Source: Luteimonas sp. ANT-B3E (GTDB taxonomy: Bacteria > Pseudomonadota > Gammaproteobacteria > Xanthomonadales > Xanthomonadaceae). Taken from it: a stretch of 64,000 nt of DNA. The notes beneath the pieces were generated by a model, which saw only the letters and a program-made list of their open reading frames with translations, searched no databases and was not told where the DNA came from. Every line of letters starts with the position of its first letter. The first letter of the stretch is position 1. The translations under genes and the position numbers were made by a program. Below, one piece after another: positions 7,648 to 39,810 of this stretch. Where the stretch lies: assembly GCA_001683895.1 (NCBI GenBank), contig LXQJ01000037.1, positions 4,633-68,632 on the forward strand, in the 5' to 3' direction.

Positions 7648-10146
7648 TCAGAACTCGTAGCGCAGGCTGAGCGACGCCGTGCGCCCCGCGATGCCGCGCG
7701 CGCGGATGATATTGTCGACGCCCTCGATGATCGCGCCTTCCTCGGACTCGGTGATGCCAAATTCGTTGAACAGGTTGTTGACGTTGAGTGACACCACCCA
7801 GTCACGTGCGAAGCGATAGTCGCCGAACAGGTTGACCTGGGTGAAGCCCGGCATCACGAGCTGATTGTTGTCCTGCGCGTAGGAGTCGGTGGTGCCGATG
7901 ACGTTGACGCCGACAGACCAGTCCAGCGTGCGATATGCCGGGGTCAGCTGGTAGATCCAGTCGGCCTGTCGGCGCGGTGTGTTGCCGACATTGGCGGGGC
8001 TGATCGCGTCCTTGCTGATCTCGGCGTCAGTCCACGTCAGGCCGCCGTTGAGCGCAAAGCCGCCCTGGCGCCACGCCGCTTCAAGCTCAATGCCGCGGGC
8101 CTTGTACACGCGGTCGAGGAAGCGCTGGTTGGTGGCCTCGAAGTTCTGCTCCTCGGTTTCGGCGTAGAAGGCGGTGGCGAACACGCTGAAAGCGTCTTGA
8201 CGCCATTTCAGGCCGGCTTCCACCTGATCGACTAGATCCACCGCGTCCTCGGCTCGCACCGAACCATCGGGCTGCACTACGCCGAAAAGGAGGCGATCAG
8301 CATTCGCGCGGCCGCCCCGGCTGATGCGCGCAAAGCCCGCCAGGTCGCCGGTAAAAAGGTAGTTGGCCCCCGCGGAATACGAGGTGTAGCCCCAGCCGTA
8401 GTCGATCGGAGAGATCGCGACGTTGTCGATCTGCGACACGCTGCGCTCGTTGGGGGTGATCACTCCGTTGCCATCGACATCGACGTTGGCTACCTGCACG
8501 CTGGCCGCGTAGTTACCGGTGGCGTCGCCGTCGTCGCGGCGCACGCTGGCGTCGAGGTCCCAGCGTCCCAGCGAAAGCGCCACCGACAGATACGGTGCGC
8601 CGATCTCGTACTTGGCGTTGTAGCTGCGCGTGCAGCAGTTGCCGAAGCTCGGTACGCCGTAAGCGTACAGGCCGTTCTGCGACAGATTGGCGCCGTCGCC
8701 ATCGATCACGTCGAGCAGCGCCGACCGTCCACCACCGCGCAGCTCCTGCACGTAGCCGTTCCACAGCCAGTCCATGTCGATGTTCTGTCGCGCGGCGTAG
8801 TAGCCCGCACTGACCTCGAAGGCACCGTCGCCGCCGAGCGCAAACGACTTCGTCAGCCGGAGGTCGTTGGCCCAGTTGCCGAAATCGTTGATCTCGACGT
8901 TGAACAGGTTGGTCTGCACGGCAGTACCGGTGAATGCCTGGCCCGCGCTTGGCCCGTTGGCGTAGCGCAACGTGCTGCCGCTCCCACCGATGGCTTCGGC
9001 GACCGCGGATCCGGTGTCGACGCTGGCCGGGAACGGCGACACGAATCGGCCGTCGGTGTCTGCATAGCGGAAGCGCTCGTTGAGCCGCCAGTCGTCGCCG
9101 AAGCGGTATTCGAGCTCGGCGCCGAACACGTTCGACACTGGGCGCATGCCGTCGCGAATGTCGGTTCGGCGCGGCTGGTTCTTGCCGTCCAAGCCCATAT
9201 CGCTGACGAAGTGGCGGCTTTGCAGGGTGTCTCTGGCAGGATCGAAGCCTGCGAGCGAGCCGAGACTGGGGTTGCTGTTGCTGCCGGATGCGCGCGTGGG
9301 TACTGGCAGGTAACCGATGGCGCGGTCGTCGAGGCGCTTGAGGGAAAGACGCGCAAAGCCGCCATCAAACTCCCGGGTCAGGTTGGCCTTGATCTGTCCG
9401 CCCTTTTCCGCGGTGTAGCCCGCGTCGCGTACGCCGTCGCCTTCCCGGTAGAAGCCGGCGACATGGAAGCGCCAGCCATCGCCGAACGGCGTGCCGTAGC
9501 GGAAGTCGACGCGGCTGCTGTCGTAGTCCAGCCCGGTCGTCAGCCCGATCGCGCCGCCGGCAATCTCGCCGGTGCTGCTGATGAAGTTGATCACGCCGCC
9601 CGGAGAGTTGCTGGCGAAGGTCGACGCCGATCCGCCGCGCACCGCTTCGATGCGGTCGATCGACCAGTCGCTGCGCAGGAAGATGTCGGCATTGCCAAAC
9701 GCGATGTCGCCGAACTCCAGCACCGGCAGCCCGTCCTCCTGCAGCTGCAGGAACTTGGCGCCGCCGGCGGCGACCGGCAGCCCGCGCACCGCGATGTTGG
9801 CGTTGCCGTCGCCACCGGTGGCCTCGGAGCGCACGCCGGGGATGTTGCGGAAGATCTCCGCGGTCGAACGCGGGGCGGACTGGGCGAGCTGCTCGACGCC
9901 AAGGGTGCTTGTGGACACGCCGGCGCGCAGTCGCGAGCGGTTGCCTGCGGCGGCCGTAACGACGATCGCATCTAGGTCCACCGCGGTCTGCGCGGTGGCG
10001 CCACTGGCGGGCGTGGACTGCCGATCGTCGGCGTTTTCGATCTGCTGGGCGACGGCAATGCCCGGAGTGAGGCAGGCGCTGACTGCCATGGCGAGCAGGA
10101 GACGGCGCGGCGGAGACATGGCTGGACGTGGCGCGTGGCTGTGCAT
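7648..10146 (-). CDS. TonB-dependent receptor for sucrose uptake, SuxA-like
   Basis: Outer-membrane TonB-dependent transporter of 832 residues. The start ATG at 10146 is followed by a second Met nine residues in and a clear signal peptide ending GIAVAQQ. Then come a TonB-box-like DLDAIVVTA, a plug domain with IFRNIPGVRSEATGGDGN and NSPGGVINF, and a long beta-barrel ending in LSLRYEF with the terminal Phe typical of outer-membrane proteins. It heads the minus-strand sucrose operon, so sucrose or a sucrose-containing oligosaccharide is the likely ligand, as for SuxA of Xanthomonas. Two LacI-type palindromes lie upstream of its start. The ligand assignment rests on neighbours; the family is certain. 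Confidence 0.9.
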   Translation of the reverse strand: MHSHAPRPAMSPPRRLLLAMAVSACLTPGIAVAQQIENADDRQSTPASGATAQTAVDLDAIVVTAAAGNRSRLRAGVSTSTLGVEQLAQSAPRSTAEIFRNIPGVRSEATGGDGNANIAVRGLPVAAGGAKFLQLQEDGLPVLEFGDIAFGNADIFLRSDWSIDRIEAVRGGSASTFASNSPGGVINFISSTGEIAGGAIGLTTGLDYDSSRVDFRYGTPFGDGWRFHVAGFYREGDGVRDAGYTAEKGGQIKANLTREFDGGFARLSLKRLDDRAIGYLPVPTRASGSNSNPSLGSLAGFDPARDTLQSRHFVSDMGLDGKNQPRRTDIRDGMRPVSNVFGAELEYRFGDDWRLNERFRYADTDGRFVSPFPASVDTGSAVAEAIGGSGSTLRYANGPSAGQAFTGTAVQTNLFNVEINDFGNWANDLRLTKSFALGGDGAFEVSAGYYAARQNIDMDWLWNGYVQELRGGGRSALLDVIDGDGANLSQNGLYAYGVPSFGNCCTRSYNAKYEIGAPYLSVALSLGRWDLDASVRRDDGDATGNYAASVQVANVDVDGNGVITPNERSVSQIDNVAISPIDYGWGYTSYSAGANYLFTGDLAGFARISRGGRANADRLLFGVVQPDGSVRAEDAVDLVDQVEAGLKWRQDAFSVFATAFYAETEEQNFEATNQRFLDRVYKARGIELEAAWRQGGFALNGGLTWTDAEISKDAISPANVGNTPRRQADWIYQLTPAYRTLDWSVGVNVIGTTDSYAQDNNQLVMPGFTQVNLFGDYRFARDWVVSLNVNNLFNEFGITESEEGAIIEGVDNIIRARGIAGRTASLSLRYEF

Positions 10147-10208
10147 GATCCCTCCCGGGGGTCGACAGGTCCTGGCGGGACCGCGGTGCTGCACGTGATA
10201 CGAGCGAA

Positions 10209-10222
10209 TGCAAACGATTGCA
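10209..10222. promoter_or_regulatory. LacI-type operator, copy 1, near the TonB-receptor promoter
   Basis: Near-perfect 14-bp palindrome TGCAAACGATTGCA with a central CG, the classic shape of LacI/GalR-family operators. One arm base deviates from symmetry. It sits 63 bp upstream of the receptor start codon. A second copy sharing CGATTGCA lies exactly 90 bp away centre to centre, and a LacI gene is next to the locus. Confidence 0.7.
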
Positions 10223-10298
10223 CGCTGCACTGCAGCGCGACCACCGGGCGCCGAAAGACAGACAAATCCAGCACCTGGGATTGCTGCGCAGCAGCATG

Positions 10299-10312
10299 CA
10301 CAATCGATTGCA
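10299..10312. promoter_or_regulatory. LacI-type operator, copy 2, near the SSS-transporter promoter
   Basis: CACAATCGATTGCA, with a perfect 10-bp palindromic core CAATCGATTG. It shares the CGATTGCA half with the other site and lies 67 bp upstream of the transporter ATG. With two sites in the divergent promoter, one repressor could control both directions. The exact boundaries of the site are a judgement. Confidence 0.65.
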
Positions 10313-10379
10313 CGAGCAGCACAATGCTCGCCCAGGCGCCGTCTCGAGACGGTCCAGCCCTTCCCGAGGAAGCGCGCGC

Positions 10380-11972
10380 ATGCAGGATCCCGTCGCCAGT
10401 CTGGGTACCGTCGACCTCGCACTGATTGCTGCATATGCGCTCGGGATCATTGCCCTCGGGCTGGTGGTGTCGCGGCGTCGCGCCTCCGCCGAGGACTACT
10501 TCCTGGCATCACGGGCGAGCAGCTGGCCGGTGATCGGCCTCTCGCTGCTGGCGTCCAACATCTCATCGACCACGCTCATCGGCCTGTCCGGCGCGGCGTA
10601 TGCCATTGGCATCTCGGTCTACAACTACGAGTGGATGGCGACTGTGGTGCTGGCGTTCTTCTGCGTGTTCTTCCTGCCGTTCCTGCTGCGCTCGCAGGTG
10701 TACACGCTGCCGGAATTCCTTGAGCGTCGCTACGATCGTCGCGCGCGGGTGTACTTCTCCGCGCTGACCATATTCCTGAATATCGTGGTCGACACGGCAG
10801 GCACGCTGTACGGCGGCGCGATCATGCTGAAGCTGATCCTGCCTCAGTGGCCGCTGTGGCAGATCGTCGGCGTTCTGGCGCTGTCAGCCGGGGTCTACAC
10901 CGTGGCTGGCGGGCTCAAGGCGGTGATCTATACCGAGACGGTGCAGGCGGTGATCCTGCTGGGAGCATCGGTGTTCGTCACATGGTTCGCATTCGACAAG
11001 GCAGGCGGCTGGGATGCGGTGATGGCTGCGGTGGACCCGGGCCGGCTGTCGTTGATCCGGCCGCTCGACGACCCCGGCGTACCGTGGCTGGGGCTCGTGC
11101 TCGGCGTCCCGCTGCTGGGGTTCTATTTCTGGTGCACCAATCAGTTCATGGTGCAGCGCGTGCTGTCGGCAAGGAACGCGCACCACGGTCGCTGGGGCGC
11201 GCTGTTTGCCGGACTGCTCAAGCTGCCGGTGCTGTATGTGATGGTACTGCCGGGCACGGCTGCCATCGTGCTGTATCCCGGGCTATCGCGCCCCGACATG
11301 GTGTATCCGACGCTGGTGTTCGACCTGCTGCCGGCTGGGCTGGTGGGGCTGGTCGTTGCCGGGTTTTTCGCCGCGATCATGTCCTCGATTGCCAGTACCT
11401 TCAATTCCGCCGCAACCCTGGTGACCATGGATTTCGTGCGGGTCCTGCGGCCCGGGACAGACAGCGCGGCACTGGTGCGCAGCGGTCGCATCACGACGCT
11501 TGTGTTCATGGTGCTCGCCGTCGCGTGGGCGCCGCAAATCGAGCGTTTTGCCTCGCTGTGGCAGTACCTGCAGGCGGTGCTGGCCTATGCGGTGCCCCCC
11601 GTGTGCGCGCTGTTCCTGGTTGGCATGTTCTGGAAAGGCGCCAATGCCCGCGGTGCGCTGGCGGCAATTGTCACCGGGCTAGTGGGCGGTGGCGTGCTGT
11701 TCTGGTGGAACGTGCTGGCGCCGGTTCCGCTGGGCCTGCACTTCCTGCTTGCGGCGCCCATCCTGTTTGCACTGTGCACGGTGGCGCTGGTCGCAGGCAG
11801 CCTCATGCTTCCTTCGCAGGCCAAGAGCGGCGTCGACGAACTCCTCTGGACGCCCGCGTTCTTCCGTGACGAAAGCAGCGCTCTGGCGACGCTGCCCTGG
11901 TGGCAGAACTATCGCCTGCAGGCGGCGGCGCTGCTGCTGCTGACGGCATCGATCGTCTGGACCTTCCGCTGA
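10380..11972 (+). CDS. Sodium:solute symporter (SSS family), probable sugar transporter
   Basis: Inner-membrane transporter of 530 residues with about 13-14 hydrophobic segments. Family motifs are SAEDYFLASR near residue 37, the unwound first core helix LSLLASNISSTTLIGLSG near 55, and GGLKAVIYTETVQ. The C-terminal sodium-site segment IMSSIASTFNSAATL is SGLT-like. It would couple Na+ entry to sugar uptake. It is divergent from the TonB receptor and shares a promoter region with two LacI-type palindromes, so it is the likely inner-membrane partner of the sucrose locus. Xanthomonas sux loci use an MFS-type SuxC instead, so this is a change of transporter family. ATG at 10380 is the start that precedes the first membrane segment. 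Confidence 0.85.
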   Translation: MQDPVASLGTVDLALIAAYALGIIALGLVVSRRRASAEDYFLASRASSWPVIGLSLLASNISSTTLIGLSGAAYAIGISVYNYEWMATVVLAFFCVFFLPFLLRSQVYTLPEFLERRYDRRARVYFSALTIFLNIVVDTAGTLYGGAIMLKLILPQWPLWQIVGVLALSAGVYTVAGGLKAVIYTETVQAVILLGASVFVTWFAFDKAGGWDAVMAAVDPGRLSLIRPLDDPGVPWLGLVLGVPLLGFYFWCTNQFMVQRVLSARNAHHGRWGALFAGLLKLPVLYVMVLPGTAAIVLYPGLSRPDMVYPTLVFDLLPAGLVGLVVAGFFAAIMSSIASTFNSAATLVTMDFVRVLRPGTDSAALVRSGRITTLVFMVLAVAWAPQIERFASLWQYLQAVLAYAVPPVCALFLVGMFWKGANARGALAAIVTGLVGGGVLFWWNVLAPVPLGLHFLLAAPILFALCTVALVAGSLMLPSQAKSGVDELLWTPAFFRDESSALATLPWWQNYRLQAAALLLLTASIVWTFR

Positions 11973-30523: not shown

Positions 30524-31075
30524 ATGGACCCCAGCCAGAACCCCAATATCTTCCACGCCACCACCATCCTGTCGGTGCGCCGCAATGGCCGCGTCGCCGT
30601 CGCCGGCGACGGCCAGGTGACGCTGGGCCACACCGTGATGAAGGGCAACGCGCGCAAGGTGCGCCGGCTCGGCCGGGACGGCCAGGTGCTGGCCGGTTTC
30701 GCCGGCGCCGCGGCGGATGCGTTCACGCTGTTCGAGCTGTTCGAGGCCAAGCTGGAGAAGCACGGCCAGCTGACGCGCGCGGCCGTGGAGCTGGCCAAGG
30801 ACTGGCGCACCGAGCGTCGCCTCGGCAAGCTCGAGGCGCTGCTGGCGGTGGCCGACAAGGACACCTCGCTGATCATCGGCGGCACCGGCGACGTCATCGA
30901 GCCCGGGGACGGGCTGATCGCGATTGGCTCCGGCGGCGCGTACGCGCTGTCCGCGGCACGCGCGCTGATGGCGCACACCGAGCTCGATGCCCGCGCCATC
31001 GCCACCGAGGCGCTGCTGATCGCCGGCGACATCTGCATCTACACCAACCGTAACGTCGTGGTCGAGGAGCTCTGA
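30524..31075 (+). CDS. hslV: ATP-dependent protease peptidase subunit HslV
   Basis: Threonine peptidase of 183 residues that forms the proteolytic core of the HslUV (ClpQY) complex. The active-site Thr-Thr of TTILSVRR is at residues 13-14, not directly after Met as in E. coli. The protein therefore has a 12-residue N-terminal extension that must be removed to expose the catalytic Thr, a feature shared with xanthomonads. Conserved blocks include [20 protein letters not shown] and [17 protein letters not shown]. It ends 1 bp before hslU, so the two are co-translated. It degrades regulators and misfolded proteins in the cytoplasm. Confidence 0.95.
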
Positions 31076-31076
31076 C

Positions 31077-32474
31077 ATGGCGATGAAGCCGGACACCTCC
31101 AGCAGCACCATGACCCCGCGCGAGATCGTGCAGGAGCTCGACCGCCACATCGTCGGCCAGCAGGCGGCGAAGCGGGCGGTCGCGATTGCGCTGCGCAACC
31201 GCTGGCGCCGCGCGCAGCTGCCCAACGAGCTGCGCAACGAGGTGATGCCGAAGAACATCCTGATGATCGGCCCGACCGGCGTCGGCAAGACCGAGATCGC
31301 GCGCCGGCTGGCGACGCTGGCCAACGCGCCGTTCGTCAAGGTCGAGGCCACGCGCTTCACCGAGGTGGGCTACGTCGGCAAGGATGTCGAGCAGATCATC
31401 CGCGACCTCGCCGACACTGCGGTCAAGCTCTACCGCGGGCAGGCCAAGGCGCGCGTGCGCACCCAGGCCGATGAGCGTGCCGAGGACCGGATCCTCGACG
31501 CGCTGCTGCCGCGCCGCGAATCGGCGCCGCAGCCGGGCTTCGGCTTCGGCGCGGCAGCGACGACCACCGTCGACATCGGTGCCGAGCCGCGCGAGAGCGA
31601 GACCCGCGCCAAGCTGCGCCGGCAGCTGCGCGCCGGCGAGCTCGACGACCGCGAGGTCGAGCTGGAGCTCGGCAGCAGCGCCGCCGGTGTCGACATCATG
31701 ACCCCGCCCGGCATGGAGGAGATGGGCCAGCAGCTGCGGCAGATGTTCTCCAGCATCGGCGGCGGCAAGACCCAGAAGCGCACGCTCGCGATCCGCGTCG
31801 CGCGGCCGCAGCTGGTGGAGGACGAGGCCGGCAAGCTGGTCAACGAGGACGAGGTGCGCGAGGCCGCGATCGAGGCCTGCGAGCAGCACGGCATCGTGTT
31901 CATCGACGAGATCGACAAGGTCGCGCGGCGCAGTGACGCCGGCATGTCCGGCGGCGACGTCAGTCGCGAGGGCGTGCAGCGCGACCTGCTGCCGCTGGTG
32001 GAAGGCTCAACGGTCAGCACCAAGTACGGATCGGTGAAGACCGACCACATCCTCTTCATCGCCTCGGGCGCGTTCCACCTCGCCAAGCCGTCCGACCTGA
32101 TCCCGGAGATGCAGGGCCGCTTCCCGATCCGCGTCGAGCTGTCGGCGCTGGACAAGGGCGACTTCGTCCGCATCCTGACTGAACCGAAGGCGTCGCTGAC
32201 GCGCCAGTACGTCGCGCTGCTGCAGACCGAGGGTGTGGCGCTGACGTTCGCCGACGACGCCGTCGAGCGGCTGGCGGAGATCGCCGCGCAGGTCAACGAG
32301 CGCCAGGAGAACATCGGTGCGCGCCGTTTGCACACGGTGCTCGAGCGGCTGCTCGACACGCTGAGCTTCGAGGCGCCCGACCGCAGCGCGCCCGTGGTCA
32401 TCGACCGCGCCTACGTCGATGCGCACCTCGGCGAGCTGGTGCAGGACCAGGACCTCAGCCGCTATATCCTCTGA
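31077..32474 (+). CDS. hslU: ATP-dependent protease ATPase subunit HslU
   Basis: AAA+ unfoldase of 465 residues that recognises and unfolds substrates for HslV. The N-terminus [16 protein letters not shown] is diagnostic. Walker A GPTGVGKT lies at residues 65-72 and Walker [10 protein letters not shown] near 275. The inserted I-domain (about 110-240) contains the MTPPGMEEM stretch. The sensor and C-terminal region ends with [11 protein letters not shown], whose tail docks into HslV. The length is slightly above the 443 of E. coli. It ends the operon; the next 1.1 kb holds only gene remnants. Confidence 0.96.
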
Positions 32475-32571
32475 CCAACTCGCGCTGCGCAGCTTCCGCG
32501 CGAAGGCCGACCCCTGGACGCATCGCGGGATCCACTCGGCGTGATCGCTATTGCATGGGACCGGGGTGCCG

Positions 32572-33298
32572 CGTCTGGCGTTCGCCATGGCGTTCGCCAT
32601 GGCGACGGTGGTGGTCTGCGCCCCCGCCGGCAGCAATGTGTCCGGCATGTCTGTTGCCACCCCGAAGCAGGCGCCGCACTGAGCGGCAGCCAACGTCGTT
32701 GCAACCGACGCCGTGGGGCACGGCCTGCAGACGGATGCCGCGGGTCCCGGTGACCATGGCTCGGTCCTGCCGGTGTCGCGCGACTTCGGCCCCTTCGTGG
32801 TCGCCTGTGACAACGGCCCGCGCTGCGAGGTCGTCGGCATCGACGATGGCGGCTTCCGGCTGTTGCTGCGGCTGTCGCGGGATGCCGGCGCACGCGGTGC
32901 GCAGGCGCTGGCGCTGGTGCGGCCCGAAGGCGCCATCGATCCCCACCGGCCTGCGCCTTGACGGCAGGCCGGTGGCGTCGCTGGTGGCGCGACCCGGCCG
33001 CGGTCGCCGGTGCCATCCATCTGCTGCGCAATGGCAACCGGCTGGCGAACGGGGACGGCGAGCGTGCGCTCGACATATCGCTTGCGAGGCTAAGCGCGGC
33101 GCTGCTGTCCGTCGACGAGCATCAGGGCTGCCTCGACACCCGCGGCGCCTGGCGACAGCGTGGCGACCACGATCGCGCTTGCCGTCCGGGCGCGTGCAGC
33201 GCAGGCCACCGTCCTGCATGCCGCGGAGTGCGATGCAGACGATGCGGCGCACGGCCGGGACGATGCCGCATTCGCGCTCGACGCGAGTCGCGTACTGG
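32572..33298 (+). pseudogene. Decayed DUF1176-like gene
   Basis: Remnant most like the DUF1176 family of secreted proteins. A signal-peptide-like start (MAFAMATVVVCAPAG) is followed in the same frame by a TGA at 32680. The frame then resumes with RDFGPFVVACDNGPRCEVVG and LLLRLSRDAGARGAQALALV. The similarity then jumps to a second frame near 32935 (TGLRLDGRPVASLV) and a third near 32990 (AIHLLRNGNRLANGDGE, SLARLSAALLSVDEHQG). Further decayed sequence runs to about 33298, where it stops at the junction with a deaminase fragment. One nonsense codon plus at least two frameshifts make it non-functional. The family call is by eye and moderate. Confidence 0.55.
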
Positions 33299-33480
33299 CC
33301 AGTCGCCGAGCAGCGCGATGCAGCGGTCGTCCTGCAGTACCAGCACGGCGCCAGCGTGATCACCATGATCGTGTCGCGGTAGCGGGTCTGGCAGCCGGCA
33401 TTGCGGAAGGCGTCGGTCTCGCCGTGAACCGAGGGGTCGTCCTCCTCCACCCGGCGGTTATGGCCGCGGCCGAGGAGGGC
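33299..33480 (-). pseudogene. Truncated second copy of the cytosine deaminase gene
   Basis: Partial duplicate of the intact deaminase at 36151-36606, same strand, about 90 percent identical by eye. It keeps sequence for HGETDAF and LAPCWYC and the segment LQDDRCIALLGDW, but lacks both ends. Internally, 112 bp matching 36238-36349 are missing. The deletion endpoints fall at two CTGCAG hexamers of the intact copy (36232-36237 and 36344-36349), and one CTGCAG remains at 33332-33337. The deletion shifts the frame, so no functional product is possible. Confidence 0.85.
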
Positions 33481-33625
33481 ATGTACGCGGAGACCGCTTT
33501 GTTGCGTGACCGGTGTTGCAATTCGCGCCGACGTTGCGCGGCGATGTGTGCAGGCGCCTTGAGGGAATGATAAAGCTGTGGGCGGGGAGATCCGGCGCTT
33601 CTTCTACTTCTTCCGAGGATTCGCC
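33481..33625. promoter_or_regulatory. Upstream region of the beta-helix protein gene
   Basis: Non-coding 145 bp between the deaminase remnant and the beta-helix gene. It is less GC-rich than the surroundings, with AT-richer pieces such as GGAATGATAAAGC, and should hold the promoter. No convincing -35/-10 pair or regulator site was identified. Confidence 0.35.
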
Positions 33626-35950
33626 ATGTTGACACGCAATGCGCAGCTCGTTCGCTGCCGCGGACTGCTGCTCGCTTTATGCGCACTAGCCTGCACGACG
33701 CCGCAGCTGGCGTCGGCCACGACCGGCACCGGCGATACGACGCGCGATCGCCATACCATCGCATCCCATCCGCAGGGCCTGCGTATCGAATGGAATCTGA
33801 CCGCGCCGCACGACGGCCGCTACGTCTTCTCCGCCCCGCTGCACGCCGGCGACGAGGGGCTGTGGCTGTGGATCGACGACGGCGTCGCCATCGACGGCAC
33901 GCCGGACCCGCAGCATGGGCACTATCGCGGCGCATACGAGCTCGAGGCCGGCCGCAGCTACCGCATGCGCCTGGAGACTTACGGCCGGCAGCGCGATTCG
34001 GCGCCAGCGCTGCGATGGAGCGCATCGCGGCTGACGTCGCGGCCGGTGCCGCTGCACGATACCCGGATCACGACCATCGCCGACGCACCAAGCGCGCTGG
34101 CCTCGACCGCGACTGAAGTGCAGCCAGCCGCCGCGCGCACCTACTACGTCGCCACCACAGGCAGCGACGGCAATGCCGGCAGCTTGGACCGTCCGTTCCG
34201 CAGCATCCAGAAATGCGCCAGCGTCGCGTTTGCGGGCGATACCTGCAGCATTCGCGGCGGTACTTACCGCGAAGGCGTACGCCCGGTCAATTCCGGCACC
34301 TCCGGAGCGCCGATCCGCTTCCAGGCCTACGGTGGCGAAACCGTCACCGTCTCCGGCGCCGATACGGTGGGCAACTGGTCGCTGTACAAGGGCAACATCT
34401 ACGTCGCGAGCAAGACGCTGCGGATCAAGGACTTCGCCGACACGGAGTTCTTCGCCAACCAGGTCTTCGTCGCCGGCGCGATGCAGCCGCAGGCGCGCTG
34501 GCCGAACAACCCAGGCAGCAACCTGCTCAAGCCGGGCCTGGCCGGCGGCTACGTCAAACTGATCGACGGCGACCAGTACAAGGTGGAAGCGGTCAACAGC
34601 GGCATTCCGGCGCTGCCCGAGGGTTGGGCGGGCGCCACGCTGTGGGCCAACGAGTGGTACACCTCGCGCACCGGCACCGTCACCGACGGCGGCGCCGGGC
34701 GCCTGACCGCGACCATGAGCGCGCCGTACTGGCGCACCGCCTACTGGTTCTTCGTGACCGGCAAGCTCGGCCTGCTGGATGCCCCCGGCGAATGGCACTA
34801 CGACCACGTCGCCAGGAAGCTCTATCTGTGGGCTCCGCAAGGCGGCAAGCCCAGCGACGTCGAGGTCAAGATGCGCAGCCTCGCTTTCGACCTGCGCGAC
34901 CGTAGCCACATCGAGCTGCGTGACATCGAGTTGCTCGCGGCTACCGTGACCACCAGCGATGCCAGCCACGCAATCGTGCTCGACGGCCTGCGCGCCAAGT
35001 ACGTCTCGCACCACGTCACCCTGCCCCCGCTGCCAGAAAGCGAGCGCATGCCAGGGACCGACAACGCCCGCCTCTTGTCCTCGCACGCCCACGACACCGG
35101 CATCCAGCTGCGCGGCAGCGGCCACGTCCTGCGCAACAGCGAGATCGCGTACAGCTCCGGCAACGGCGTGCTACTGGAGGGCAGCGGCCACGAGATCTAC
35201 AACAACGTCGTCCGCGACGCCAACTATGCCTCGAGCTATGCCGCGCTGATCCGCGCCAACGGCAGTGGCCACAAGATCGTCCGCAACACGCTGAGCGGCG
35301 CCGGCCGTAGCGCCATCGATGTCGACTGGCGCACCAATGGGTTCCGCTTTGCCGACAACGAGATTGCCTACAACCGCATCACCCGCTTCGGTGCGCTCAG
35401 CTCCGATCTTGGCGGCATCTATATCTGCTGCAACATCGACCAGACCGGCACCCGCATCCACCATAACCGCGTCTACGACCCCTATGGCTACAGCTACCAC
35501 TGGGAGGTCGCCGGCATCTACACCGACAGCGGCAGCTACAGCGCTACCGTGCACCACAACCTGCTCTACGCATTCAACGTCAACAAGCCCAGCGCGCTGA
35601 AGATCGCCACCAAGGCCGGCAAGGGTCCGGAGCGGATCTACAACAACACCGTCGATGCCTGGGTGCGAGTGCCGTCCGCCGACAACTACTGGGTACGCAA
35701 CAACATCTTCGCGCGCGGCCAGACCGCCACCGGCACCTCGGTTTCGCACAACCTGTTCCAGGGCAGCGATGCGAAATTCGTCGATGCGGCCAACGGCGAC
35801 TACCGCCTGGGCGGCGGCTCGCTGGCGATCGACAGCGGCCGCGTGCTCTCGCCCTATACCGACGGCTACAAGGGCGCGAATCCGGATCGCGGCGCGTTCG
35901 AGTCCGGCGTCTCCGCGTGGACCGCGGGCGCGACGCTGCCGGCGCGCTGA
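33626..35950 (+). CDS. Secreted right-handed parallel beta-helix protein, possible polysaccharide-active enzyme
   Basis: Large exported protein of 774 residues with a signal peptide ending PQLASA. The N-terminal part (about 40-140) looks like a PA14-type carbohydrate-binding fold (YVFSAPLHAGDEGLWLWIDD). The phrase YYVATTGSDGNAGSLDRPF near residue 172 is the usual start of DUF1565/beta-helix proteins. From about 430 onward short repeats follow the pattern of beta-helix coils (SGHVLRNSEIAYSSGNGVLL, SGHEIYNNVVRDANY), and the C-terminus has DYRLGGGSLAIDSG. Such folds are found in pectate/alginate lyases and epimerases, but I could not identify a catalytic motif. It is bracketed by two copies of a deaminase gene and shows signs of insertion. 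ATG at 33626 fits the signal peptide. Confidence 0.75.
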   Translation: MLTRNAQLVRCRGLLLALCALACTTPQLASATTGTGDTTRDRHTIASHPQGLRIEWNLTAPHDGRYVFSAPLHAGDEGLWLWIDDGVAIDGTPDPQHGHYRGAYELEAGRSYRMRLETYGRQRDSAPALRWSASRLTSRPVPLHDTRITTIADAPSALASTATEVQPAAARTYYVATTGSDGNAGSLDRPFRSIQKCASVAFAGDTCSIRGGTYREGVRPVNSGTSGAPIRFQAYGGETVTVSGADTVGNWSLYKGNIYVASKTLRIKDFADTEFFANQVFVAGAMQPQARWPNNPGSNLLKPGLAGGYVKLIDGDQYKVEAVNSGIPALPEGWAGATLWANEWYTSRTGTVTDGGAGRLTATMSAPYWRTAYWFFVTGKLGLLDAPGEWHYDHVARKLYLWAPQGGKPSDVEVKMRSLAFDLRDRSHIELRDIELLAATVTTSDASHAIVLDGLRAKYVSHHVTLPPLPESERMPGTDNARLLSSHAHDTGIQLRGSGHVLRNSEIAYSSGNGVLLEGSGHEIYNNVVRDANYASSYAALIRANGSGHKIVRNTLSGAGRSAIDVDWRTNGFRFADNEIAYNRITRFGALSSDLGGIYICCNIDQTGTRIHHNRVYDPYGYSYHWEVAGIYTDSGSYSATVHHNLLYAFNVNKPSALKIATKAGKGPERIYNNTVDAWVRVPSADNYWVRNNIFARGQTATGTSVSHNLFQGSDAKFVDAANGDYRLGGGSLAIDSGRVLSPYTDGYKGANPDRGAFESGVSAWTAGATLPAR

Positions 35951-36150
35951 GGCCGACTCCCGTCCTGCCAAAATGTGGTGCGACTTCACGCGTGTGTGGG
36001 AGCGACGGCAACCACGACTGCCGCCGCTTCTGCAACTGCCGCCTCGCCGCGATGTATCGGGTTGATCGGGCCGTCAATATCCCGCCCGGTCGGGAAGAAT
36101 CACCCGCTTCGACTCTGCGGCGAACGCACGGGCCGTCCGCGCGTCCCGTT

Positions 36151-36606
36151 TCAATCCTCGCCGATATCCTCGTTCCACAGCACCGGGTTGGCCGCGATCC
36201 AGTCGCCGAGCATCGCGATGCAGCGTTCGTCCTGCAGGTCGACGACGCGCACGCCGGCGTCGCGCAGCCAGTCGAGGCCGCCGGCGAAATTGACCGACTC
36301 GCCGACCACCACCGTGCCGATGTTGAACTGCCGCACCAGCCCGCTGCAGTACCAGCACGGCGCTAGCGTGGTGACCATGATGGTGTCGCGGTAGCGGGTC
36401 TGGCGGCCGGCCTTGCGGAAGGCGTCGGTCTCGCCGTGCACCGAGGGGTCGTCCTCCTGCACGCGGCGGTTGTGGCCGCAGCCGAGCAGGCGGCCGTCGT
36501 CGTGATACAGCGCCGCGCCGATCGGAATGCCGCCCTCGGCCAGCCCGGTGCGCGCCTCGGCGAGCGCGGTGTCGAGCAGGGCGCGGTAGTCGGGGGTGGC
36601 GATCAT
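36151..36606 (-). CDS. Cytosine deaminase-like nucleoside/base deaminase
   Basis: Zinc-dependent deaminase of 151 residues resembling the fungal Fcy1-type cytosine deaminase in size and in its C-terminus (VVDLQDERC and WNEDIGE). Zinc ligands are His57 in the HGETDAF motif, where Glu59 is the proton shuttle, and Cys84 and Cys87 in PCWYC. Other shared features are EGGIPIGAAL at the N-terminus and VVGESVNF before the final helices. It probably converts cytosine to uracil in pyrimidine salvage, although related members act on other bases. A truncated relic of the same gene lies 2.8 kb away on the other side of the beta-helix gene. Confidence 0.88.
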   Translation of the reverse strand: MIATPDYRALLDTALAEARTGLAEGGIPIGAALYHDDGRLLGCGHNRRVQEDDPSVHGETDAFRKAGRQTRYRDTIMVTTLAPCWYCSGLVRQFNIGTVVVGESVNFAGGLDWLRDAGVRVVDLQDERCIAMLGDWIAANPVLWNEDIGED

Positions 36607-36736
36607 GCGGGTCTCCGGAAGCAGGGAGCCGGGGACCGGCCGATGACGCAGTGTGCCCGCGTCGCGCGACCTGCGTCCGCGCTAGCCGTGTCGACGGCCG
36701 ACGGCCGACCGCGGGCGCGGTGCGATACTGGCGGCC

Positions 36737-37633
36737 ATGAACACGACCCCCGACCCGTCCGCCGACCCATCAGCCGACCCGTCAGCCGACCCGTCAGCCG
36801 ACCCGTCAGCCAATCCGTCAGCCAATCCGTCCGCCAATCCGCCGCGCGCCGACGACGCGCAGGGCACCGGCGCCGCCCGGACTGCCGGCGCCGCCGACAC
36901 CACCCATTTCGGCTTCCGCGACGTGCCGGTGGGCGACAAGCAAAAGCTGGTGGGCGAGGTGTTCTCGTCGGTGGCCGCGCGCTACGACCTGATGAACGAC
37001 CTGATGAGCCTCGGCATCCACCGGGCGTGGAAGCGGTATTTCGTGGCCACCGCGCAGGTCAAGCCGGGTGACCGCGTGCTCGACCTGGCCGGCGGCACCG
37101 GCGACATCGCCGCGCTGCTGCGCGACCGCGTTGGCGACGCCGGCGAACTGGTGCTGGGCGACATCAACGGGCCGATGCTGCGCGTCGGGCGCGACCGGAT
37201 GGTCGACCGCGGGCAGGTGCGGGGCTTCCGCTACGTGCAGTGCAACGCGCAGACGCTGCCGTTCCCCGACGCCAGCTTCGACCTGGTCACCATCGCCTTC
37301 GGCCTGCGCAACGTCACCGACAAGCCGGCGGCGCTGGCGGAGATGCTGCGCGTGCTGCGCGTTGGCGGGCAGGCGCGGGTGCTGGAGTTCTCGCGGGTCA
37401 AGGCCGACTGGTTCCGCCCGCTGTACGACTTCCATTCGTTCCAGGTGCTGCCGAGGCTGGGCAGGTTGTTCGCCGGCGACAGCGACAGCTACCGCTACCT
37501 CGCGGAGTCGATCCGCAAGCATCCGCCGCAGGCGGAGCTGCAGGCGATGATGGAGGCGGCGGGCTTCGCGCGCTGCAGCCATCGCAGCCTCAGCGGCGGC
37601 ATCGTCGCGGTGCACACCGGCTACCGCGTCTGA
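36737..37633 (+). CDS. ubiE: Ubiquinone biosynthesis C-methyltransferase UbiE
   Basis: SAM-dependent methyltransferase of 298 residues, about 45 longer than E. coli UbiE. The extra length is an N-terminal low-complexity leader holding seven tandem Pro-Ser-Ala-Asp/Asn tetrapeptides (residues 7-34). The conserved enzyme then begins at THFGFRDVPVGDKQKLVGEV. UbiE signatures include YDLMNDLMSLGIHRAWKR, the SAM motif LDLAGGTGDIA, and FGLRNVTDKPAALAEMLRVL. It adds the ring C-methyl group in ubiquinone synthesis. The leader is unlikely to matter for catalysis; a downstream start cannot be ruled out but no better candidate is seen. Confidence 0.93.
   Translation: MNTTPDPSADPSADPSADPSADPSANPSANPSANPPRADDAQGTGAARTAGAADTTHFGFRDVPVGDKQKLVGEVFSSVAARYDLMNDLMSLGIHRAWKRYFVATAQVKPGDRVLDLAGGTGDIAALLRDRVGDAGELVLGDINGPMLRVGRDRMVDRGQVRGFRYVQCNAQTLPFPDASFDLVTIAFGLRNVTDKPAALAEMLRVLRVGGQARVLEFSRVKADWFRPLYDFHSFQVLPRLGRLFAGDSDSYRYLAESIRKHPPQAELQAMMEAAGFARCSHRSLSGGIVAVHTGYRV
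36755..36838 (+). repeat. 12-bp tandem repeat, seven copies, in the 5' end of ubiE
   Basis: Seven head-to-tail 12-bp units encode four PSAD then three PSAN tetrapeptides. Units differ by one or two bases (CCGTCAGCCGAC, CCATCAGCCGAC, CCGTCCGCCAAT). A 12-bp unit keeps the reading frame, so copy number could change between strains without inactivating UbiE. Confidence 0.9.
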
Positions 37634-37746
37634 CAGGGTCGGCGGCCCGACGACGCGCCGGCCGCCGTGCGGCAGCGGGGCGTGCGCCAAGGCCGCGGAG
37701 CAGCGCACGCTAGAATCGCGGTCCCGACCCCCGACGGACCCTGCCG

Positions 37747-39810
37747 ATGCGCACGACCCTGATCAAGGCCTCCCTGTGCCTGGCGTTGCTGGCGCTGGCC
37801 GGCGGCTGCTCGCGCGACGAGGCGCCGGCGCCGACCGCCACCGGCGCCAGCAACGCGCGACCAGCGGTGGACGATGCCGCCGAGCGCGACGAGCATTCCT
37901 ACGCCGAGCCCGAGAAGGTGGTCATCGACGACCTCGCCCTGGCCCTGGCGCTGGACTTCGACAGCCGCACCCTCGCCGGCACCGCCACCTACACGCTGGA
38001 CTGGAAGGACGCCGCCGCCGACGCACTGGTGCTCGACACCCGGGACCTCGTCATCGAGCGGGTCGAAGGCCAGGCCGACGGCGGCGCCTGGCAGCCGCTG
38101 CAGCATGTGCTGGCGGCGCGCGACGCGCTGCTGGGCAGCCGCATGACCATCGAGGCGCCGGCGCGCCCGGCCCGCATCCGCGTCACCTACCGCACGTCGC
38201 CGGAGGCGTCGGGCCTGCAGTGGCTGCAGCCGGCGATGACCGCGGGCGGGCAGACGCCCTTCATGTTCAGCCAGTCGCAGGCGATCCACGCGCGCTCGTG
38301 GGTGCCGCTGCAGGACACCCCACGCGTGCGCTACAGCTACACCGCGCGCGTCACCGCACCGCAGGACGTGATGGTGCTGATGAGCGCCGACAACGACCCG
38401 GCCGCCGCGCGCGACGGCGACTACCGCTTCTCGATGCCGCAGAAGATCCCGTCGTACCTGATGGCGATCGCCGCCGGCGACCTGGTGTTCCGGCCGATCT
38501 CCGCGCGCGCCGGGGTGTGGGCCGAGCCGTCCGCGGTCGACGGCGCAGTGGCCGAGTTCGCCGACACCGAGAAGATGATCGCCGCCACCGAGCAGCTCTA
38601 TGGCCCCTACCGCTGGGAGCGCTACGACCTGCTGGTGCTGCCGCCGTCGTTCCCGTTCGGCGGCATGGAGAACCCGCGGCTGTCGTTCATCACCCCGACC
38701 GTGATCGTCGGCGACCAGTCGCTGGTGTCGCTGATCGCGCACGAGCTCGCGCACAGCTGGTCCGGAAACCTGGTCACCAACTCGAGCGCCAGGGACGGCT
38801 GGTTGAACGAGGGTTTCACCAGCTACGTCGAGAACCGCATCGTCGAGGCGCTGTATGGCAAGGAGCGCGCCGACATGGAGTTCGTGATCTCGCGCAACGG
38901 CCTGCGCGAGGAGATGAAGACGATGCCGCCGGACATGCAGGTGCTGGCGGTGAAGCCCGGGGTGCTCAAGGACCCTGACGACGCGCTGAGCGCGGTGAGC
39001 TACGACAAGGGCGCGTGGTTCCTGCAGTTCCTCGAGCTGCGCTTCGGGCGCAGCGAGTTCGACGCCTTCCTGCGCGGCTACTTCGACCATTTCGCATTCC
39101 AGAGCATCTCCACCGCCACCTTCGCCGACTACGCGCGCGAGAATCTGCTCGGCAAGTATCCCGGCAAGCTCAGCGACGCCGAGTTCCAGGCCTGGCTGTA
39201 CGAGCCGGGGATCCCGGCCGATGCCCCGCGCACGCTGTCGCCGCGCTTCGGCGTGGTCGATTCGGCGCGGCTGGCGTGGCTGGGCAGCGCGCAGCTGCCG
39301 CCGCCGGTGATCACCGACGCGTGGACGACGCAGGAGTGGGTGCACTTCCTCGAGGGCCTGCCGCAGACGCTGACCATCGTGCAGCTGTCGCAGCTCGACA
39401 CCGCGTACGCATTCACGCGCACGCCCAACGGCGAGCTGGCGCAGCGCTGGTATCCGCTGGCGGTGCGCAGCGGCTATGTGCAGGCCAACCCGGCGATCGA
39501 GCAGTTCCTGCAGCGCATCGGCCGCCGCAAGCTGATCATGCCGACCTACGAGGCGCTGGCGCGCACCGAGCCGGGATTGGCGATGGCGCGCGATGTGTTC
39601 GCGCGTGCGCGCCCTGGCTACCACCCCATTACGACCGCGTCGGTCGAGCAGCTGCTGGCCGCCGCGAAGCCGGTGCCGGGCGCCGCGCCCGCGACCGTCG
39701 CGCCGCCGCCGGAGGCGGCCGATCCGGCCGACGACGACGTGCGCGCGATGCCCGCCTCCGACGGCGATGCCACCCGCCCGGCGCCGCGGCAGGCGCCGAC
39801 CGGCAACTGA
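37747..39810 (+). CDS. M1 family aminopeptidase lipoprotein
   Basis: Zinc metallopeptidase of 687 residues with a lipoprotein signal (lipobox LAGGC near residue 18-22), so attached to a cell-envelope membrane. The substrate motif GGMEN lies about 25 residues before the zinc site HELAH at 332-336 in HELAHSWSGN, with the third ligand Glu355 in NEGFTSYVE. This arrangement matches leukotriene A4 hydrolase-type M1 enzymes, including the C-terminal helical domain from about 480. A Pro/Ala-rich tail ends the protein. It would remove N-terminal residues from peptides in the periplasm. It is 12 bp upstream of the hydrolase gene and probably begins an operon. Confidence 0.92.
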   Translation: MRTTLIKASLCLALLALAGGCSRDEAPAPTATGASNARPAVDDAAERDEHSYAEPEKVVIDDLALALALDFDSRTLAGTATYTLDWKDAAADALVLDTRDLVIERVEGQADGGAWQPLQHVLAARDALLGSRMTIEAPARPARIRVTYRTSPEASGLQWLQPAMTAGGQTPFMFSQSQAIHARSWVPLQDTPRVRYSYTARVTAPQDVMVLMSADNDPAAARDGDYRFSMPQKIPSYLMAIAAGDLVFRPISARAGVWAEPSAVDGAVAEFADTEKMIAATEQLYGPYRWERYDLLVLPPSFPFGGMENPRLSFITPTVIVGDQSLVSLIAHELAHSWSGNLVTNSSARDGWLNEGFTSYVENRIVEALYGKERADMEFVISRNGLREEMKTMPPDMQVLAVKPGVLKDPDDALSAVSYDKGAWFLQFLELRFGRSEFDAFLRGYFDHFAFQSISTATFADYARENLLGKYPGKLSDAEFQAWLYEPGIPADAPRTLSPRFGVVDSARLAWLGSAQLPPPVITDAWTTQEWVHFLEGLPQTLTIVQLSQLDTAYAFTRTPNGELAQRWYPLAVRSGYVQANPAIEQFLQRIGRRKLIMPTYEALARTEPGLAMARDVFARARPGYHPITTASVEQLLAAAKPVPGAAPATVAPPPEAADPADDDVRAMPASDGDATRPAPRQAPTGN

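Follow-up and report, generated by a model that had tools for sequence, protein, structure and literature searches.

A deaminase relic as the probable scar of a beta-helix gene insertion between hslU and ubiE in Luteimonas sp. ANT-B3E

The region between hslU and ubiE of Luteimonas sp. ANT-B3E was analysed within a 64,000-nt stretch of contig LXQJ01000037.1 (positions 4,633 to 68,632; hereafter the window), which contains no N and belongs to a 2.8-Mb draft genome of 57 contigs that is 89% complete. Downstream of hslU, four features precede ubiE: a DUF1176 pseudogene, a relic of a deaminase gene, a beta-helix gene of 774 codons (hereafter the cargo), and an intact deaminase gene (Table 1). Insertion of the cargo at this slot is well supported. 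The preliminary description of this DNA had placed the cargo between two same-strand deaminase copies, and this is what the locus holds. The copies share two direct repeats, 33332-33478 with 36344-36490 (135 of 147 positions identical, 92%) and 33299-33337 with 36199-36237 (37 of 39, 95%); both lie on the minus strand, opposite to the cargo, and the left one is degenerate. BLASTN analysis of 31000-38000 against the whole window reports both repeat pairs (E 6e-56 and 6e-11) and, beyond them, only four matches of 26-41 nt (E 7e-4). A deaminase nucleotide profile also recovers the relic (E 5.8e-41). No duplicated flanking sequence occurs in the window apart from these two blocks: homology of the relic ends near nt 117 of the intact gene, and nothing similar follows beyond that point within the window. 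The preliminary description had offered a segmental duplication or a recombination-mediated insertion; the insertion stands, while a plain segmental duplication is not indicated, as only the deaminase blocks are duplicated. Elsewhere in the genome, a single 27-bp DNA match to 33299-36606 is reported, and a protein match on contig C57 (42% identical) is a distant deaminase relative.

The relic has lost both gene ends and an internal segment. The offsets of the two repeats are unequal (3012 and 2900), so the left copy lacks 112 nt internally. In the intact gene, the corresponding segment is bounded by CTGCAG hexamers (36232-36237 and 36344-36349), and the loss at this pair resembles what slippage would leave. 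Because this loss shifts the frame, which breaks after PCWYC, and because both ends are gone, the relic is not an intact gene. Its 3' side abuts the DUF1176 pseudogene at 33297-33299, and a single deletion seems to have taken the tails of both. The pseudogene itself is matched by the DUF1176 protein of a relative (tblastn, E 6e-19), and Pfam reports DUF1176 on 32713-32958 (E 7e-4, under the family cut-off); its middle part goes on in another frame (ORF 32958-33359). An assembly or binning artefact merging two strains, as a fragmented and incomplete draft might contain, is very unlikely here: both ends of the interval lie on one contig and are syntenic with relatives, the two copies have diverged and one has decayed, and the stretch at the left junction, between relic and cargo, resembles nothing elsewhere in the window above 16-nt chance-level matches.

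Table 1. Features of the hslU-ubiE interval in the window, with the deaminase pair of relative G391 in the last line
Feature	Coordinates	Strand	Evidence
hslU, left anchor of the slot	31077..32474	+	Pfam AAA_2, ClpB_D2-small; syntenic in relatives; name from the preliminary description and position after hslV
DUF1176 pseudogene with stops and frameshift, last ~114 codons gone	32566..33297	+	Pfam DUF1176, tblastn
Deaminase relic, nt ~117-263 and 370-408 of the intact gene	33299..33478	-	Direct repeats, profile match, tree
Junction, with the region upstream of the beta-helix gene	33479..33625	.	Window comparison, promoter scan
Cargo, gene of a 774-aa PA14/beta-helix protein	33626..35950	+	ATG at 33626; Pfam and PDB matches
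Spacer, beta-helix gene 3' end to deaminase 3' end	35951..36150	.	
Intact deaminase, resident right anchor	36151..36606	-	Pfam dCMP_cyt_deam_1, 62.8 bits; yeast cytosine deaminase match
ubiE, right-hand neighbour	36737..37633	+	Pfam Ubie_methyltran, E 5e-82
G391 deaminase fragment and intact deaminase	L117 reverse complement, 8367-8469 and 10007-10462		

The intact deaminase has a match in 50 of the 52 genomes of the genus, counting its own (it was not found in G006 and G012). Being near-universal in the genus, and usually lying between hslU and ubiE where checked, it is taken as the resident copy. By sequence, it is assigned to the yeast-type cytosine deaminases: residues 11-150 of 151 align with the yeast enzyme (PDB 1uaq and 1ox7, E 4e-29), and the alignment spans HGE, PCxxC, and a C-terminal EDIGE. 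The HxE and PCxxC motifs are presumably those of the zinc site. The window gene thus shares with the yeast-type enzymes both these motifs and the family C-terminus, but its product is bacterial and its substrate is predicted from the sequence. Pfam MafB19-deam also matches (44 bits). A reading of cargo and deaminase together as a polymorphic toxin was rejected, the deaminase being a separate yeast-type gene in those 50 genomes.

The kinship of the two copies was read from a tree of 180 columns, in which the relic and the intact gene are sisters (support 99/90) with end branches of 0.11 and 0.0063 substitutions per site, respectively. The two differ at 14 positions. At six of them (nt 120, 148, 168, 195, 202, and 236) the base of the relic is unique among the rows, all 51 other rows agreeing at four of these six, and the intact gene carries the rarer base at nt 225 and 243. 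With sister copies and nearly all change on the relic branch, the duplication therefore postdates the split from the sampled relatives, the nearest of which lie at a distance of ~0.32 at 4-fold sites, a rough clock in a GC-biased genome. By these measures, the duplication is lineage-specific yet not very recent. The preliminary description had spoken of a site of recent rearrangement: the rearrangement holds, but "recent" does not in a strict sense, given a relic branch of 0.11 against ~0.32 and a DUF1176 gene that has decayed too. Mutually nearest copies are also what an in-place duplication predicts, and the pair might have arisen in two steps, by a local duplication of the deaminase (unequal exchange or slippage) followed by the independent arrival of the beta-helix gene between the copies. 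This course deserves serious attention but is doubtful, for it requires two events, the duplicated sequence is deaminase only, and the relative G391 too has a deaminase fragment beside its cargo.

The cargo starts with a signal-peptide-like segment, as judged by eye, and carries three Pfam domains above their cut-offs (Beta_helix, 41.1 bits; PA14, 37.5 bits; and a Pel9A-like helix, 28.1 bits over 53 residues). Its PDB matches are both partial: the GH120 beta-xylosidase 3vst (E 1e-16) aligns with the N-terminal part of the helix over 88 residues, and 39 residues of the protein align with the GH141 protein BT_1002 (5mqp, E 1.4e-5). Unlike these enzymes, the cargo has a PA14 domain in front, and with partial alignments only it is assignable to neither family; the GH141 candidate was rejected since GH141_M scored 18.5 bits, below its cut-off of 27, and the cargo attains no curated whole-enzyme score. 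An AlphaFold model of the cargo and four distant relatives had a mean pLDDT of 45.5 and was not used. Its fold family suggests an exported enzyme, probably a hydrolase or lyase of polysaccharides. A promoter scan of the upstream region returned no sigma-70-like match, a scan of the 3' spacer returned no terminator-like match, and a REP-like motif at 35995 is not above chance.

The cargo had been proposed as a candidate for acquisition, and its distribution agrees: among the genomes compared, it occurs in this lineage only. No full-length match was returned from the collections searched. Among 394 other genomes of the family, 27 match it at E <= 1e-6, all partially (best match 51 bits, 123 of 774 residues), as do 17 of 60 relatives at E <= 1e-3, again in part. 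In a class-level sample, 3 of 368 other genomes match in part, with 29-33% identity, at E <= 1e-15, in a phylum-level sample none of 397 others does, and a peptide-pattern search found no match in the genome-contig or viral-contig collections. The comparison of base composition and codon use suggested in the preliminary description, with ORF 33578-35950 as one of 39 genes predicted by a simple caller, gave a divided answer. The overall GC content is low (0.67, the mean being 0.715 and the sd 0.023, hence ~2 sd), mainly at first codon positions (0.61 against 0.72), whereas codon choice is ordinary (rank 29 of 39, with 1 the most deviant; GC3 0.88 against 0.894). Composition thus leaves a foreign origin undecided.

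The slot was compared in two sets of relatives, one of 52 loci (50 of the genus, the window included, and two of other families) and one of 80 named family loci picked by deaminase similarity, at least 12 of which overlap the first set. Among the named loci, hslU is found in 72, ubiE in 77, and both in 71. The spacing from hslU to the deaminase runs from 32 bp to 8.7 kb between alignment ends in those 72, and from 0.58 to 8.8 kb in the 41 of 52 loci where it was measurable. The preliminary description had asked whether the deaminase follows hslU in relatives; in some it does so almost directly, and the slots examined hold no beta-helix gene. Over the 52 loci, the slot encodes 135 called proteins that fall into 50 clusters, 32 of them singletons (simple gene caller; a fixed 6-kb stretch was used in the 11 loci with no usable hslU match). 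Conserved genes on both sides and variable content between them are both present, and in these two respects the slot fits a core-gene-bounded hotspot. The comEC and dprA genes for DNA uptake are present in the genome; the same families match an E. coli control, hence this means little. Our limited literature search found no published account of the slot.

Some occupants of the slot in relatives deserve mention in their own right. A pair made up of a Phd/YefM-type antitoxin gene and, after it, a zeta-toxin-like gene recurs in L119 (10076-11349) and loci like it; the corresponding clusters cover 14 and 12 loci (Pfam analysis of one member each). Four loci (L117, L118, L080, and L074) show a second variable gap of ~1.6-1.8 kb, between the deaminase and ubiE; by eye, it holds a TerC-like membrane gene in L074 and a secreted metalloprotease-like gene in the other three. 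In the window, the ubiE reading frame opens with a 12-nt tandem repeat (~36741-36848, Asp-Pro-Ser-Ala and like units). The match to ubiE in most relatives starts only at residue 53-55, and its real start may lie downstream.

Direct repeats around a cargo might also recall a mobile element integrated site-specifically at the deaminase end, with the relic as the att duplication. This is extremely unlikely: Pfam analysis of seven window queries and of eight slot proteins from two relatives returned no integrase or transposase, and the repeats are partial, diverged, and of differing extent in the window and in G391. An integrase-type island with an att duplication was accordingly rejected, there being no recombinase among the window queries and no near-identity between the end repeats.

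The best reading, to which we give a probability of about one half, is an insertion into the slot by recombination anchored in the deaminase, with the relic left behind. The interval would then be one state of a variable slot between hslU and the resident cytosine deaminase near ubiE, and we infer the following order of events. In the lineage of the window, the slot would earlier have held a DUF1176 gene facing the deaminase, an arrangement seen in 4 of the 52 loci, where the two genes are convergent and at most 31 bp apart. The incoming DNA would have carried the beta-helix gene together with deaminase sequence. On the right side, it may have paired homologously within the deaminase (or ubiE), and on the left it may have been joined non-homologously inside the resident deaminase near nt 117. 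The outcome would be a complete deaminase by ubiE and a 5'-truncated one by DUF1176. Both the truncated copy and DUF1176 would later have decayed, by the slippage-type deletion of 112 nt and by one deletion fusing the two pseudogenes. Since the two deaminase copies are sisters, the donor would have been near kin. The same geometry, a left copy 5'-truncated at DUF1176 and a right copy complete near ubiE, would also result from a single crossover of a circular molecule on which the beta-helix gene was accompanied by a deaminase piece truncated at its 5' end, the duplicates being the hybrid halves of this piece and the resident gene; in E. coli, linear DNA may circularise and then undergo a single crossover, according to the portion of PMC3240628 available. 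However, only 147 bp separate the relic from the cargo and 200 bp the cargo from the deaminase, which leaves no room for a plasmid backbone, and such an origin is unlikely.

Recombination at the deaminase was also sought in relatives. In G391 (locus L117), a 3' fragment of the deaminase (85.5% over 83 nt) lies 1.5 kb from the intact gene, with an AraC-family regulator gene and a CMD-family gene in between. No deaminase fragment lies in the slot of L054 or L058, which the core-gene tree places as sisters of G391. The G391 slot also holds type III restriction genes. Over its 3'-most 225 nt, the deaminase of G024 (L053) resembles the window at 92-94% and four clade mates at 75-84% (92% and 75-77%, respectively, for the last 150 nt), whereas from ~300 nt onward, toward the 5' end, the gene and ubiE are closer to the clade mates. 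A test of the clade of G024, with L066, L073, and L127 included, rejects this clade for the deaminase (p 7e-4); in the ubiE tree, the clade is recovered (86/88). The clade of G023 is likewise rejected for the deaminase (p 4e-5) and shown by ubiE (100/99). These observations suggest that crossovers took place within or at the deaminase. Profile searches of the loci for hslV, hslU, ubiE, and the peptidase gene returned no real extra pieces at E < 1e-3, as the two apparent extra matches, of hslV and hslU, come from genes truncated where L062 and L073 end. Among 80 other genomes of the family, 45 have any deaminase DNA match at E <= 1e-6 and none has a second piece beside the intact gene; three have two matches on different contigs, a split gene in G089 and short matches in G079 and G099.

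Several observations weigh against a deaminase-anchored insertion. DUF1176 beside the deaminase was observed in one clade, to the exclusion of the nearest relatives of the window. A second deaminase piece occurs in just 2 of the 52 loci (E < 1e-3) and in none of the 80 named loci, and no donor was found. The G391 fragment scores higher against the intact gene of the window (112) than against that of G391 itself (103), and therefore establishes neither a separate event nor a self-copy. The p-values of G024 and G023 are optimistic, the tested clades having been named after the trees were seen, and the expected clades are not rejected for the deaminases of the window (p 0.128) or of G391 (p 0.388). 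The 3' end of G024 is as much like L056 as like the window, and in 18 chosen triplets G024 gives p-values from 3.5e-6 to 0.36. Finally, a triplet scan, in which the 4000 best-ranked candidates per gene were scored and hslU and the peptidase gene were left out, shows only a small excess for the deaminase (7 of 50 rows, G024 not among them) over ubiE (3 of 50) and hslV (2 of 37).

What the locus offers is the scar of a single insertion, whose decay gives a rough age, in a slot that is variable among the Lysobacteraceae compared, together with a second genome, G391, that bears a similar scar. If the deaminase-anchored mechanism is true, it shows how a core gene survives being a recombination point. 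One may go further and picture the Lysobacteraceae deaminase as a recurrent landing anchor, at which incoming fragments re-supply a complete deaminase and truncate the resident one, so that cargo could be stacked while the core gene is kept, and relics like the two in the window and in G391 would be countable footprints; this proposal is speculative and rather improbable. The practical gain is modest, namely a possible new enzyme acting on polysaccharides and a marked site at which lineage-specific genes may be sought.

The event appears real and looks to be of an already familiar kind, as variable slots between core genes have been described before and one-sided homologous insertions have been proposed. 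Oliveira et al. 2017 (PMC5635113, in the part available) report gene-turnover hotspots that lie between core genes, many of them devoid of mobile elements. The present slot resembles them, as far as that part describes them, in its conserved flanks, its variable content, and signs of recombination in a flanking gene. It differs in that those hotspots are defined within species whereas the slot was compared between species, and in that an excess of recombination in the deaminase is weakly supported here. Homology-facilitated illegitimate recombination (PMC3240628, in the portion available) has been proposed for the orphan immunity arrays of Vibrio type VI secretion system (T6SS) clusters (PMC5361080, likewise in part). 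As outlined there, the likeness would lie in one homologous anchor, one non-homologous joint, and part of an old gene beside a new module; the difference is that the relic of the window derives from the very gene proposed as the anchor, and that the case is known here from its sequence.

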